Shown here: in pieces, positions 1,250 to 46,425 of the stretch
Numbering within the stretch: the stretch's first letter is position 1
Layout: each line of letters opens with the position of its first letter
IMG/VR virus record: IMGVR_UViG_3300021963_000062
Span: 1-64,000 of that record
Reading direction: 5' to 3' (one strand)
Origin: a virus
DNA: 64,000 bases
Program-made: the position numbers and the translations under genes
The notes under the pieces: model-generated
Seen by the model: the letters and a program-made list of their open reading frames with translations, nothing else
Told to the model about the DNA's origin: nothing
Database searches by the model: none

Positions 1250-2191
1250 TTAAAAAAGAAGGTCTGAGGTATCACCCCAACTATAACTGGGAGTTGCGAA
1301 TAACGAAGGTTCACTATTACTCTGTGCCCAATCTGGAAGAGTAGCAGAATTGTTTGTTGGTTGGGGTTGTTTGAATTCTGCAGAACCTGTTCCCTGATGA
1401 TTCAAAATAACATATCTGTCATAGTTAAAAGTAACTGTTGTTTTCGTGATAGTACTTCCTTCATAAGTAACTGGAAGTGCTGTTAATTGTGTTGGAAAAG
1501 CGTTAACAAAATAATATGTTAACATTGAAGGAGTTCTTACTACGTCCTTCATTGGGCTCATATGTGTGTCTCTTTCAAACTTTGTTACTGCTAAAGGTCT
1601 TTTATAAGTATTTGGATATCTAAATCTGAAGAATTCCCAATCATTAAACCTTTCAACTCCTCCTCTCGAAGTTCCTTTAGTAGCTCTTCCGTATTGATTA
1701 TAAAGTGGATTAATGAAGTTTAACCATTCTTCAAATAAACGAATAATCCCATATTCCGCATCAACATAAAATGTCATTGATATTTCTGGAAATTCTCTTC
1801 TATTTGGGAATTTTTCTACCATTCCTTGTCTACTCCCAGTTTCTTCAAACATGCTAAATGAAGAACCGGGAAGACTGGTTTCATTGCACATAAACTCATA
1901 ACGAAGGGAGTTTAAATTGGCATTATTTCCATTGAATAAATTTGAACCCAAAACTCCACAAGAAACTAACCACGCATTAATATCTGAATCTGATTTAGCT
2001 GTTGGATATGTATCACCCAAATATAAAGTAACCTTGAATTGACTGGTTACTGATAACTCGCCAAAAAGATCTTGTACACTAGGCAATCCAAATCGGTTGT
2101 CATTACTATCTCTAGGCAGAGTCATCCTTGCATAGATTGGATCAACTCTGTATGGATTAATTGGATAATCGTCTCTGAATGCCTCAGGCAT
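1250..2191 (-). CDS. 54: Baseplate tail-tube initiator gp54
   Basis: A 313-residue protein from the ATG at 2191 (MPEAFRDDYPINPYRVDP). The central part, with EFMCNETSLPGSSFSM followed by an EFPEISMTFYVD segment, has the fold signature of tail-tube-like proteins (gp19/gp54 family). gp54 sits on the baseplate hub and starts tube polymerisation together with gp48, whose gene lies on the opposite strand nearby. A longer frame opens at 2287, but it would run through the start of the divergent gene 4, so 2191 is preferred. The intergenic region with gene 4 is only 29 bases. Confidence 0.8.
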   Translation of the reverse strand: MPEAFRDDYPINPYRVDPIYARMTLPRDSNDNRFGLPSVQDLFGELSVTSQFKVTLYLGDTYPTAKSDSDINAWLVSCGVLGSNLFNGNNANLNSLRYEFMCNETSLPGSSFSMFEETGSRQGMVEKFPNRREFPEISMTFYVDAEYGIIRLFEEWLNFINPLYNQYGRATKGTSRGGVERFNDWEFFRFRYPNTYKRPLAVTKFERDTHMSPMKDVVRTPSMLTYYFVNAFPTQLTALPVTYEGSTITKTTVTFNYDRYVILNHQGTGSAEFKQPQPTNNSATLPDWAQSNSEPSLFATPSYSWGDTSDLLF

Positions 2192-4647: not shown

Positions 4648-6981
4648 ATGGGATACTTCAGAGAACTACCAAATTTACAAGTTCTGAATAGAACAAAAAA
4701 TAATGTTTCTAATGATGAAGTTGTAATAATTAAAAATATATTTAAAAAACCAAAAATTCGTGAAGATTTTTTGTCAATATTTTCTGCATTTGAATATTAC
4801 TCAATTACTGATAATGAAAGACCTGAACAAATTGCGGAAAAAGTATATGGTGACCCCGAATTGGATTGGGTAATCTTAATTACTAATAATATTACAAACG
4901 TTCAAGAACAATGGCCTTTGGATCTGGATTCATTTAACAGATATATGTTAGATAAGTATGGATCCGAAGAAGCATTTTCAAATATTAAACACTATGAAAC
5001 TTTAGCGGTTAAAGACGCTTTCAACAGAGAAGTATTCCCTGCAGGTTTAATCGTAGATGAAGCTTTTTATAATGCACCAGAGTTCGAAAGTTTAGAAGAA
5101 TTGCCTCCTGGAATAACATTTCCTCCAATTTATATTCCGGGAACTCAAGCTTCAGCTACGGCTTCAATTGGTGCAGGTCAATCGATTGCTAATATCAATA
5201 TAACTAATAGTGGAGCTGGATATCAACAAACGCCCAGAGTGTTTATTTCATCACCTCCATTTACTGCAAATGCTTCTGCAAGTTGTTTTATCAATAATTT
5301 TAATGTTTCATCTATAGTCAATCTTGATGGTGGTCAAGGATACAATTCCGCACCTAATGTTTCAATATCAACTGCGCCACAATCAGTCCAAGCTACTGCT
5401 TCTTGTGGACTTGGTACAGGTATTTTCTATGATAAAGTAATTTCTATCTTAGACATACAAGGTGGATCTGGATATGGACTGACTGCTCCAACTGTTACTT
5501 TTACTCCTCCTCCAAATATTATTCAAGGATCTTACTTAAATCAATCTTCTGGATCTGCTGGAAATCAAATAGAAGGATTTTATCTTCGACAAGATGGAGT
5601 AAAATTATATACGGCTAGTATATTTGGAGCAAATCAAATTAAAGAATATAGTTTTCTTGATCCATGGAATGTTACGACAGTTATATTTGAAAAAGAAATC
5701 GACGTAAGTGTAGAGTTTAGTTATTGCACTGGAATTGAGTTTAGTCCAGATGGTTCTAAAATGTATATTACTGGAGGTCAGGGTGGATCTTATAAACTGA
5801 TATCTTATCAACTTTCTACACCATGGGACATATACACTGCAGCAAAATGGCATGAAGTTTCTACAACAAATCCTGGGGGGATTAGATTTAAACCAGATGG
5901 AACAATGTATTATTTCCTTGAGGCTGAAAATCCTGACGTAATTAAACAATATTCTTTATCAAGTCCTTGGAATTTAACTACAAGATCTGGATCTCCAGTA
6001 GGTACATATAACATAACTACGGTTTCTGGAGAAAATAGAATGTTAGGAATATCATTCTTAACTGATGGAACCAAAATGTTTGCTACGGGTGAAGATAATT
6101 CTAGTATATTTGAATTTACTTTTGATACTCCTTGGGATATTACAACTCTTAATTACTCTCTTTCATTTTATGTTGGAGATAAAATAACAAATCCCGTAGA
6201 TGTTTTTATACGATCTGACAAAGAAAAATTCATTGTTGGTGGTGGAGTTGGAGATAAAATGTATGAGTACACTATTGTATCTTTGGCAAAAGGATTTTCT
6301 ACAGTACTAAATGGTTCTGTAAATTCAATTCAAATTACTCAGTCTGGAGTAGGTTATACTGTCGCTCCAACTATCACTCTTAGCTCACCATATCCAGCAG
6401 TAAATGCTACAGCAGTTGCAAACGTATCTGGAGGAATTGTTACCAGTATTTCAATTACTAACGCTGGTTTTGGATATACTATTGCACCATCACTTACCAT
6501 AGATCCCGCTCCAGTTTCTAGACAAGCATCTGCAATAGCTTCTATATCAAATTCTGGAATTTCATCCATTCGTATTCTTGATGGAGGATTAAATTATGTC
6601 AATGCAATTTCTATAACTATTGATCCACCTGAAGATATTTTAAATGTGGTGGAAGGTCAAATTTATAGTCAAAATCAAAAAATGTGGAAGTGGTTTGGTA
6701 CAGAGTGGAAAGAACAAGTAACAGACGAATTCAAATATTTGGATCCAACTATCAATACTCTTGTTAAAATTCCTGGGAATGCAATGTCAAAACCAGTTAC
6801 AAACTATGAATATGAAGTTAATATTAATGAGAAAAAAAGACAGATTTTAATTTTAAAACCACAATATTTGTCAACATTAATTCAAGACCTAAGAAATATG
6901 ATGAAATATGATCCAGAAATGAAAGATTATATCTCGGATAATTTGAAGTCTACATATAATGAGAAACTATTTGGAGTTTAA
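4648..6981 (+). CDS. 53: Baseplate wedge gp53 with large inserted repeat/propeller-like region
   Basis: A 777-residue protein. Residues about 1-130 match gp53 (RPEQIAEKVYGDPELDWVIL is the core signature, compare T4 RPEELANAIYGNPQLYWVLL) and the last 110 resemble the gp53 C-terminal helix region. T4 gp53 is about 196 residues, so some 500 residues are inserted. The insert contains copies of a 'GxGYxxxPxVxI' repeat (e.g. SGAGYQQTPRVFISSP, NAGFGYTIAPSLTID), flanking five copies of 'F-x-x-DG-x-K-M-Y...L-x-x-PW-D-I', which look like propeller blades. The insert may be surface-exposed on the baseplate. See findings. Confidence 0.85.
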   Translation: MGYFRELPNLQVLNRTKNNVSNDEVVIIKNIFKKPKIREDFLSIFSAFEYYSITDNERPEQIAEKVYGDPELDWVILITNNITNVQEQWPLDLDSFNRYMLDKYGSEEAFSNIKHYETLAVKDAFNREVFPAGLIVDEAFYNAPEFESLEELPPGITFPPIYIPGTQASATASIGAGQSIANINITNSGAGYQQTPRVFISSPPFTANASASCFINNFNVSSIVNLDGGQGYNSAPNVSISTAPQSVQATASCGLGTGIFYDKVISILDIQGGSGYGLTAPTVTFTPPPNIIQGSYLNQSSGSAGNQIEGFYLRQDGVKLYTASIFGANQIKEYSFLDPWNVTTVIFEKEIDVSVEFSYCTGIEFSPDGSKMYITGGQGGSYKLISYQLSTPWDIYTAAKWHEVSTTNPGGIRFKPDGTMYYFLEAENPDVIKQYSLSSPWNLTTRSGSPVGTYNITTVSGENRMLGISFLTDGTKMFATGEDNSSIFEFTFDTPWDITTLNYSLSFYVGDKITNPVDVFIRSDKEKFIVGGGVGDKMYEYTIVSLAKGFSTVLNGSVNSIQITQSGVGYTVAPTITLSSPYPAVNATAVANVSGGIVTSISITNAGFGYTIAPSLTIDPAPVSRQASAIASISNSGISSIRILDGGLNYVNAISITIDPPEDILNVVEGQIYSQNQKMWKWFGTEWKEQVTDEFKYLDPTINTLVKIPGNAMSKPVTNYEYEVNINEKKRQILILKPQYLSTLIQDLRNMMKYDPEMKDYISDNLKSTYNEKLFGV

Positions 6982-14031: not shown

Positions 14032-14132
14032 TACTTTGCTCCAACGAGTTGTGCTAGTTGTGCTTGATGACGACGATTTTCTTTTTGTTTTTGTTCTTTA
14101 ATAAGTTGTAGGAAGTTGAGTTTTTGAATCAC
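14031..14132 (-). CDS. Basic Gln/Lys-rich mini-protein, 33 aa (GTG start)
   Basis: Frame for MIQKLNFLQLIKEQKQKENR then RHQAQLAQLVGAK. GTG at 14132 is preceded by AAAGGAGGGG, a strong Shine-Dalgarno. The product would be a single amphipathic basic helix. It overlaps the TGA of the preceding DUF4278-like gene and, by TAATG, the following membrane mini-gene. Confidence 0.45.
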   Translation of the reverse strand: MIQKLNFLQLIKEQKQKENRRHQAQLAQLVGAK

Positions 14133-14266
14133 TTGTGCCCCTCCTTTACAAACTTGACGCCACGATAGACTTCACTTTGTTGTTGGGGTTGTTGCATCAT
14201 CTGTTGTTGATAAGCGATACGCTTTTCGGTATCATACTCAACACCGCGATAAACGACTTTGGACAT
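14129..14266 (-). CDS. DUF4278-like small protein with two YRG motifs
   Basis: A 45-residue product (MSKVVYRGVEYDTEKRIAYQ...VYRGVKFVKEGHK) with two copies of VYRGV(E/K)(Y/F). Short proteins with repeated YRGxxY are typical of marine cyanobacteria (DUF4278) and their phages. AGGAG lies eight bases before the ATG. About 40 bases upstream lies a structured block resembling a glutamine-II aptamer, so this could be the regulated downstream peptide. Confidence 0.65.
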   Translation of the reverse strand: MSKVVYRGVEYDTEKRIAYQQQMMQQPQQQSEVYRGVKFVKEGHK

Positions 14267-14302: not shown

Positions 14303-14474
14303 CGTTCCTTCAGTCGGCTTTTGCGTCTAGGTTACAACTTTTTTTAGTCATCTGTTTAACTTCAAAGATAATTTCAGATTTGAATTGATCCTCAAGTCTC
14401 AGATTGTTATTAACATTTTTAATAATCATTTGTGCCTGTAAACAGGTCAATAAAAGTTGTTCCATAGATGAACG
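14303..14474 (-). promoter_or_regulatory. Glutamine-II riboswitch-like motif B (ORF-containing P2)
   Basis: On the minus strand: CGTTCATC (P1/P2 5' part, near 14474), then about 120 bases, then GACGCAAAAGCCGACTGAAGG and AACG at 14303-14327. The 5' CGTTC pairs with 3' GAACG (P1), TCTA with TAGA, and ACAACTTTT with AAAAGTTGT (extended P2). GACGCAAG and GAAGGAACG are conserved blocks of the glnA/Downstream-peptide glutamine aptamers. The block is diverged and its P2 loop holds an ORF, so this is a candidate only. It precedes the DUF4278-like peptide gene. Confidence 0.4.
14310..14465 (-). CDS. Small protein, 51 aa, nested in riboswitch-like motif B
   Basis: Frame for MEQLLLTCLQAQMIIKNVNN...KSCNLDAKAD, 51 residues, helical and charged. 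Its ATG follows directly on CGTTCATCT and its last codons are the conserved block of motif B. It lies just downstream of motif A, where Downstream-peptide RNAs have their short ORF. There is no clear Shine-Dalgarno. It could be a real regulated peptide or a chance open frame through an RNA. Confidence 0.4.
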   Translation of the reverse strand: MEQLLLTCLQAQMIIKNVNNNLRLEDQFKSEIIFEVKQMTKKSCNLDAKAD

Positions 14475-14477
14475 ATC

Positions 14478-14730
14478 CGTTCCGAGTCGGCTTACTTGCG
14501 TCCTATTTAATTTTTAGCACCTTGTCACTACGTCTCTTCGTAGTTCTAAAAGCAATCGGTCTTCTCTTCTTTGATTTACTACATCGTCGTTTTTAACGAT
14601 GTCCATAAGTTCCCACGCTGCGTCACAACTTATAGTCACAGGATATGGATTCTGGACAAGTCGTGGCGTTGAAACAGAAAGAAGTGGAACCCATGCCAAA
14701 AGCAAAAGTGCTTTAGTCATAGGATGAACG
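14478..14730 (-). promoter_or_regulatory. Glutamine-II riboswitch-like motif A (ORF-containing P2)
   Basis: On the minus strand: ACGTTCATCCTATG at 14731-14718, then the 68-codon frame, then ATAGGACGCAAGTAAGCCGA followed by CTCGGAACG. CGTTC can pair with GAACG (P1) and TCCTAT with ATAGGA (P2). GACGCAAGTA and GGAACG are conserved glnA/Downstream-peptide aptamer blocks. The loop of P2 would be over 200 bases. Candidate only; see findings. Confidence 0.4.
14514..14720 (-). CDS. Small exported-type protein, 68 aa
   Basis: MTKALLLLAWVPLLSVSTPRL is a signal-peptide-like start, followed by a soluble charged part with two Cys (ISCDAAWELMDIVKND, C-terminal VVTRC). The start codon follows ACGTTCATCCT; no Shine-Dalgarno is seen. 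A possible promoter lies at 14741-14770. No known family. The frame is contained in riboswitch-like motif A. Confidence 0.5.
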   Translation of the reverse strand: MTKALLLLAWVPLLSVSTPRLVQNPYPVTISCDAAWELMDIVKNDDVVNQRREDRLLLELRRDVVTRC

Positions 14731-14740
14731 TTAGGAGATT

Positions 14741-14770
14741 AGTATACTCCTATTCATACTATCTAGGCAA
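14741..14770 (-). promoter_or_regulatory. Possible sigma-70-like promoter
   Basis: TTGCCT (14765-14770), 18-base spacer, TATACT (14741-14746) on the minus strand, just upstream of motif A. The spacer begins with AGATAGT, a string shared with two other intergenic regions (18514-18522, 19426-19434 on the plus strand as ACTATCTAG). Confidence 0.45.
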
Positions 14771-46260: not shown

Positions 46261-46311
46261 TTGTTTAAAAGGATAGTAAGACCATCAGGGAAATGGTGGA
46301 GATACTATGCT

Positions 46312-46380
46312 CCCCGCACCCTTAGCGGGGATATGAGAGACGGATTGGTAACCCTGCCTAGTCTCGGTCAAGCGGCAGGG
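46312..46380 (-). other. Two GC-rich hairpins in the psbA leader
   Basis: CCCTGCC/GGCAGGG (46352-46358 with 46374-46380) and CCCCGC/GCGGGG (46312-46317 with 46325-46330). Both lie in the transcribed leader between the promoter at 46431 and the psbA ATG. Neither is followed by a T-run, so they are not terminators. They could stabilise the mRNA or be a processed small RNA. Confidence 0.6.
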
Positions 46381-46425
46381 AATACAATGTTACAGAAGAT
46401 GAAAATCTCTTAACATTTGTTTACC

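Follow-up and report, generated by a model that had tools for sequence, protein, structure and literature searches.

The minus-strand region 14303-14730 of the window (the whole 64,000-nt stretch of DNA analysed) is probably a single composite riboswitch of the glutamine-I class that controls a phage DUF4278 peptide and has P2 loops serving as gene slots. The window is part of a 97-kb virus record, and its closest relatives are marine T4-like cyanophages. An earlier note on this DNA had described two glutamine-II-like motifs arranged head to tail, each with an ORF in its P2 loop. Both motifs and both ORFs are present, with every block at the position given there (Table 1), and the minus-strand order is CGTTCATCC, ORF A, GGACGCAAGTAAGCCGACTCGGAACG, GAT, CGTTCATCT, ORF B, GACGCAAAAGCCGACTGAAGGAACG and the YRG peptide gene. 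The reading as two separate motifs had to be abandoned, since P3, loop E and the 19:41 pair each join one element to the other, and the two elements are almost certainly one composite, interlocked structure.

Table 1. Features of the composite element in the window, with positions counted from its first letter
Feature	Position	Strand	Remarks
Promoter TTGCCT-N18-TATACT	14739..14763	-	-10 inside short palindrome AGGAG...CTCCT
Element 1, 5' block CGTTCATCC	14730-14722	-	
Outer P1 5' strand CGUUC (element 1)	14726..14730	-	From sequence; trans partner 14307-14303
Outer P2 5' arm UCCUAU	14719..14724	-	Overlaps ORF A start codon
ORF A, 68 aa, two Cys	14514..14720	-	In outer P2 loop
Block after ORF A ATAGGACGCAAGTAAGCCGACTCGGAACG	14506-14478	-	Followed by GAT
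Outer P2 3' arm AUAGGA	14501..14506	-	Pairs with 14724-14719 (TCCTAT/ATAGGA)
nt 19 of outer pocket, C	14498	-	Partner G14302
Loop E 5' strand GUA	14493..14495	-	Element 1 only
P3 5' strand AGCCGACU	14485..14492	-	Pairing analysis across loci
Inner P1' strand GAACG (element 1)	14478..14482	-	From sequence and RNAalifold consensus
nt 41 of inner pocket, G	14477	-	Partner C14323
Element 2, 5' block CGTTCATCT	14474-14466	-	After GAT
Inner P1' strand CGUUC (element 2)	14470..14474	-	3-nt linker from GAACG
Inner P2' 5' arm UCUA	14465..14468	-	A common to ORF B start codon
ORF B, 51 aa, two Cys	14310..14465	-	In inner P2' loop; ends DAKAD-stop inside aptamer
Element 2 P2, second stretch ACAACTTTT/AAAAGTTGT	14460-14452 with 14342-14334	-	
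Inner P2' 3' arm UAGA	14326..14329	-	Pairs with 14468-14465 (TCTA/TAGA)
Element 2, 3' block GACGCAAAAGCCGACTGAAGGAACG	14327-14303	-	
nt 19 of inner pocket, C	14323	-	Partner G14477
P3 3' strand AGCCGACU	14312..14319	-	Y = A14319; pairing analysis across loci
Loop E 3' strand GAA	14309..14311	-	Element 2 only; overlaps ORF B stop UGA (14312-14310)
Outer P1 3' strand GAACG	14303..14307	-	nt 41 = G14302
YRG peptide gene, 45 aa, DUF4278	14129..14266	-	Putative regulated gene; AGGAG just upstream

Pairing between the two elements

The P3 strands, AGCCGACX in element 1 and YGCCGACU in element 2, pair with each other across the elements. The X:Y pair is U-A at 150 of 215 loci, G-C at 46, A-U at 18 and U-G at one. 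Among the 157 of 161 unique composites that have an 8-nt P3 strand, X and Y pair in all 157 (types UA, GC, AU and UG), compared with 90.8±4.6 in shuffles. Sliding the strands lowers P3 pairing in the unique composites from 76% to 34%, 26% and 10%. On a tree of the downstream peptide, which is short and makes the tree noisy, X and Y changed jointly in all 14 supported independent pairs (p=1.2e-4). Compensatory changes in related phages, which the earlier note had proposed looking for, occur in P2 and, in trans, in P3. BLAST found AGUCG/CGACU as the P3 pairing of the named phages Bellamy, S-SM1, Syn19, syn9, S-TIM5 and S-CAM3, with compensated versions in P-RSM4 (AUUCG/CGAAU) and S-H34 (GGACGG/CCGCCC). 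Changes of Y are often accompanied by DANAD in place of DAKAD in the ORF B tail, which would fit a protein sequence that yields to the RNA pair.

Loop E is divided between the elements. Across more than 200 loci, element 1 has GUA and lacks GAA, element 2 has GAA or AAA and lacks GUA, and no contiguous phage element contains a complete loop E. Host glnA aptamers carry GUA and GAA together in one element (30 of 30). Neither an exchanged element order nor exchanged loop-E halves were ever found among real pairs. The 19:41 pair, numbered as in PMC6698751, behaves in the same manner. Nucleotide 19 of element 1 pairs in trans with nucleotide 41 of element 2 at 216 of 216 loci (C:G 97, G:C 119), against 103 of 216 for the cis pair inside element 1, while the inner trans pair is C:G at 206 of these loci, G:C at three and fails at seven. 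For the 161 unique composites the trans pair forms in all 161, the cis pairs of elements 1 and 2 in 90 and 87, and shuffles give 80.8±6.3. The downstream-peptide tree places changes of 19:41 at two well-supported independent events, both concordant, and at 11 events on the best tree.

P1 has practically no strand variants on which cis and trans covariation could be compared, and the lone match, locus L127, is an unrelated sequence. Since P1 does not vary, its strand partners were deduced from geometry, energy and the alignment to the Rfam model. Three bases separate nucleotide 19 from P2, and a single base separates P2 from CGUUC; a helix supplying nucleotide 41 to element 1 must therefore hold the CGUUC of element 1 as well. 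Two checks are independent of the pairing scheme used here. The best alignment to RF01739 is an outer hybrid of the element 1 5' half and the element 2 3' half with 44-57 nt in P3; it scores 47.6 (L158), 45.5 (L151) and 43.7 bits (S-H34), above any single element, and elements taken alone reach 33-39 bits against RF01739 or RF01704. RNAalifold, run unconstrained on 61 short-loop composites, gave the trans fold at -46.75 versus -43.22 for the forced cis fold, and single-sequence energies were lower in trans for 57 of 57. The GenBank record of S-CREM1 has a single 99-nt glnA feature that spans the whole composite.

Relation to known glutamine aptamers

The window sequence gave no glutamine match in Rfam, either at gathering or at E<=10. 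Its copy falls below threshold because ORFs fill its loops (150-210 nt). A pattern scan of viral contigs provided more than 100 homologues, many of them without an ORF and with P2 as an ordinary short hairpin, such as CGTTCATCCCATAAGGGACGCAAGTAAGCCGACTCGGAACG-GAAT-CGTTCATCCTCTTTGAGGACGCAAAAGCCGACTAAAGGAACG. Short-loop homologues pass RF01739 gathering at 35.1-47.6 bits (35.1-39.4 in the first set of elements). The covariance-model scan, chosen beforehand as a test that could refute a glutamine aptamer, was thus blank for the window and positive for its short-loop relatives, and membership in the glutamine-aptamer family is upheld by the latter. The proposed glutamine-II class fits less well, since RF01739 (glutamine-I/glnA) outscores RF01704 in nearly all relatives; a single relative, L083, passes RF01704 gathering (33.2 vs 33 bits), and the others score 24.6-28.7. 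In alignments judged by eye only, no consistent complement for an RF01704-type P2 helix round the pseudoknot loop was found in the 3' flank. RF01739 is carried by 172 of 291 genomes of the host class. Judged from sequence, the phage element belongs nearer to glutamine-I than to glutamine-II.

Like glutamine-I, the phage element has P1, P2, loop E and the GGAACG core and lies upstream of DUF4278, and its outer hybrid aligns to the RF01739 model with scores as high as 47.6 bits. It differs in that P3 is a hairpin in host glnA whereas the phage P3 ends in a second, circularly permuted pocket, in having the loop E strands in different elements, and in carrying ORFs in its P2 loops. The core blocks, the C19:G41 pair, the short downstream peptide gene and the phage and marine setting are shared with glutamine-II (Downstream-peptide), but a glutamine-II-type P2/pseudoknot is not visible. 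The pocket segments common to both classes (CGUUCA, GACG and GGAACG) are kept in the phage loci. Glutamine binding and ON regulation are known for relatives (PMC6698751, PMC6316151), and the ligand is quite likely to be glutamine. Glycine and glutamine doublets and other tandem, pseudo-cooperative riboswitches (PMC9481103) similarly use a single leader with two pockets for the same ligand, but they are described as separate aptamers, whereas the phage pair consists of exchanged halves.

Proteins encoded in the P2 loops

Both P2 loops are optional gene slots. Among 210 parsed loci the loop combinations are short/short at 69, short/ORF at 79, ORF/ORF at 38 and ORF/short at 24, and the same block order at all 210 excludes chance. 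A long loop is present in 37 first and 85 second elements of the first 125 loci, and without exception it contains an ORF whose start lies at the P2 5' arm. The total is 182 loop ORFs (61 ORF A, 121 ORF B). Exactly two Cys are present in 61 of 61 ORF A and 119 of 121 ORF B sequences, the median dN/dS is 0.32 for ORF A and 0.56 (weak constraint) for ORF B, and the two are homologous (hhalign probability 97, E 2.5e-11). Many phages have them annotated as genes (T4-GC 429, 430). These features suggest that the loop ORFs very probably encode real proteins. Both are predicted, with moderate confidence, to form helical hairpins; the predictions matched no PDB fold (best E above 2) and the sequences no Pfam family. 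The sole annotation match is that of ORF B to phrog_504, where a function is not assigned. A tblastn search of phage records found nothing with the ORF A of the window; a marine ORF A relative matched 57 records and an ORF B relative 76.

ORF A lies inside its P2 loop as first described, with a stop 13 nt short of the aptamer 3' half, but ORF B runs on through the 3' half, where its five final codons and the stop lie (GAC GCA AAA GCC GAC TGA, DAKAD-stop). Such read-through of the aptamer is seen for 117 of the 121 ORF B sequences. The shared RNA block is read as DAKAD-stop in ORF B, as GRK-stop in many ORF A sequences, or is untranslated, so it is conserved as RNA. Pairing of P2 across the ORFs, another feature of the earlier description, exceeds that of permuted partners and shows compensatory changes: contiguous pairs average 6.59 versus 4.15 across ORF B (41 protein clusters, 0 of 5000 permutations) and 5.55 versus 3.87 across ORF A (11 clusters, reached by 5 of 5000). 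The window also bears out start codons at the P2 5' arm, and relatives are mostly alike: contiguous P2 covers all or part of the AUG in 116 of 121 ORF B and 46 of 61 ORF A cases, and the AUG lies outside it in the other 15 of 61 ORF A cases. A Shine-Dalgarno sequence is absent before all 61 ORF A. Gain and loss of the ORFs on the downstream-peptide tree take at least 38 and 51 changes, and in locus L101 an element-1-type ORF occupies the element-2 slot. Group I introns likewise carry protein genes in the peripheral loops of a structured RNA, and one phage-composite relative has a probable GIY-YIG gene; unlike those introns, the phage element lacks a ribozyme, encodes small two-Cys proteins and has the start codon in an aptamer stem.

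Downstream gene, promoter and expression platform

The YRG peptide of the window scores 19.4 bits against DUF4278 (PF14105; Pfam cut-off 25.3), and four of five relatives tested are above the cut-off. Cyanobacterial glutamine aptamers mainly precede DUF4278 genes, and DUF4278 also forms the N-terminal part of IF17, the inactivating factor of glutamine synthetase (PMC6316151). The ON direction is known for glutamine-II (PMC6698751). By analogy with these systems, it seems fairly likely that the phage RNA would act as a glutamine ON switch for DUF4278.

Promoter-like hexamers of the sigma-70 type lie upstream in most relatives, with a spacer of 17 (119) or 18 (37). The -10 usually ends 7-10 nt ahead of the first CGTTC, which puts the probable start of transcription at the aptamer. 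The arms of the palindrome around the -10 box vary by phage (AGGAG/CTCCT, GTGTTA/TAACAC, GGTATG/CATACC, GTCATG/CATGAC, GGTCTA/TAGACC) and seem to change together, which is odd for a fixed operator. In the C41 clade, nucleotide 41 is the first of 8 nt predicted to pair with the Shine-Dalgarno sequence (CTCTTTAA/TTAAGGAG, pairing probability 0.95); the same base would thus switch partners. This hairpin is clear in the C41 clade only and is absent from the G41 clade of the window.

Distribution and variants

The short-loop element matches 416 phage records, nearly all of them cyanophages. The composite pattern had 14 matches in 11.3 million bacterial and archaeal contigs, of which seven were real; these were attributed to phage DNA within marine SAGs/MAGs and were rejected as host-genome copies.

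Several relatives have unusual arrangements. In L141, L164 and L218, 549 nt separate element 1 from element 2, and the inner P1' loop has a 182-aa ORF that is probably GIY-YIG (motif GRGYIGSR) at scores below the Pfam thresholds; the trans pairs persist despite this ORF in the linker loop. L050 has a triple array at 6526-6824 (+), two GUA-type elements and then one GAA-type, of which the second and third, but not the first, have matching P3 strands (AGUCA/UGACU). In L115, at about 1847-2075 (-), an ORF A-type two-Cys gene lies just upstream of the composite promoter, not in the loop, and the first P2 loop is a plain hairpin. A manA RNA (RF01745, 168-184 bits) lies near the composite in L054, L120 and L122; it is upstream of the composite in L122 (P-SSM4), and in L120 a tRNA follows. 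The window also contains a PhotoRC-II RNA (RF01717, 63 bits) at 46297-46392 (-), a known cyanophage element.

Proposed mechanism and alternative explanations

In the interlocked structure the outer pocket combines the element 1 5' half with the element 2 3' half, with P1, loop E and P3 in trans. P3 continues into a circularly permuted inner pocket, to which element 1 contributes its 3' half and element 2 its 5' half. The P2 loops face outward, with ORF A in the outer and ORF B in the inner one and the start codons in or beside P2. At high glutamine the RNA would fold, P2 and P2' would hide the ORF starts, and DUF4278 would be switched on. At low glutamine, translation of the ORFs would bring ribosomes into the aptamer 3' strands, and their passage or stopping there would keep the RNA unfolded. 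The inferred mutual exclusion of ORF translation and RNA folding is an evenly balanced proposition, and regulatory coupling of the ORFs to folding has about the same chance of being right as of being wrong. The fullest version of the model falls slightly short of an even chance: two interlocked glutamine pockets would let one RNA choose among three proteins, the DUF4278 regulator when folded and two small two-Cys proteins when unfolded, with start and stop codons as parts of the aptamer.

Two separate tandem aptamers that fold alone and act independently, the view first taken of this locus, would agree with the 33-39 bits reached by single elements and with the 157 glutamine doublets counted as independent pseudo-cooperative systems (PMC9481103). 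This arrangement is very improbable, given that neither element has a whole loop E, that the cis 19:41 pair fails at about half of the loci whereas the trans pair holds at all, that P3 covaries in trans and hybrid matches score higher, and that no real pair has exchanged order or exchanged loop-E halves. The same architecture with a ligand other than glutamine is unlikely, if less so. The C:G-clade phage pockets do differ from host glnA at nucleotides 19 and 41, and in the inner pocket loop E is incomplete, but the conserved pocket segments and the shared partner gene, DUF4278, argue for glutamine, and the C19:G41 pair is of the type of glutamine-II (PMC6698751).

It is hardly credible that the long loops are untranslated spacer RNA with the ORFs as by-products. 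The missing Shine-Dalgarno sequence ahead of ORF A would fit; the open frames, the two invariant Cys, the dN/dS of ORF A, the homology of ORF A and ORF B and the annotation as genes in many phages all speak against it. A more serious alternative, which has a substantial chance but less than an even one, keeps the composite as described and treats the ORFs as passengers that share its promoter and sit in harmless P2 loops with no regulatory coupling. The repeated shifts in ORF presence on the tree, the element-1-type ORF in the element-2 slot of L101, the probable GIY-YIG ORF of three relatives and the ORF A relative upstream of the promoter in L115 are in its favour. Start codons are nearly always in or beside the P2 arm, P2 pairing reaches into the coding region and ORF B nearly always crosses the aptamer, which point to coupling, but these features could also follow from insertion at a fixed point.

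Implications

In the open-access papers searched, no description was found of interlocked aptamers or of ORFs in aptamer loops, and riboswitches whose aptamer loops house protein genes that start in the aptamer stem appear not to have been reported there. Tandem glutamine aptamers that form one RNA of exchanged halves alter how ligand response and cooperativity are to be modelled. The exchanged halves also mean that single-element scans score cyanophage elements poorly or miss them. The nested loop genes permit a direct test of whether translation competes with ligand folding, and if the choice among three proteins is true, nearly all marine T4-like cyanophages would have it. Hundreds of cyanophage genomes carry the element ahead of a DUF4278 peptide. 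Since the DUF4278 class includes the N-terminal part of IF17, the element is a candidate means by which phages may read and adjust the nitrogen status of the host.
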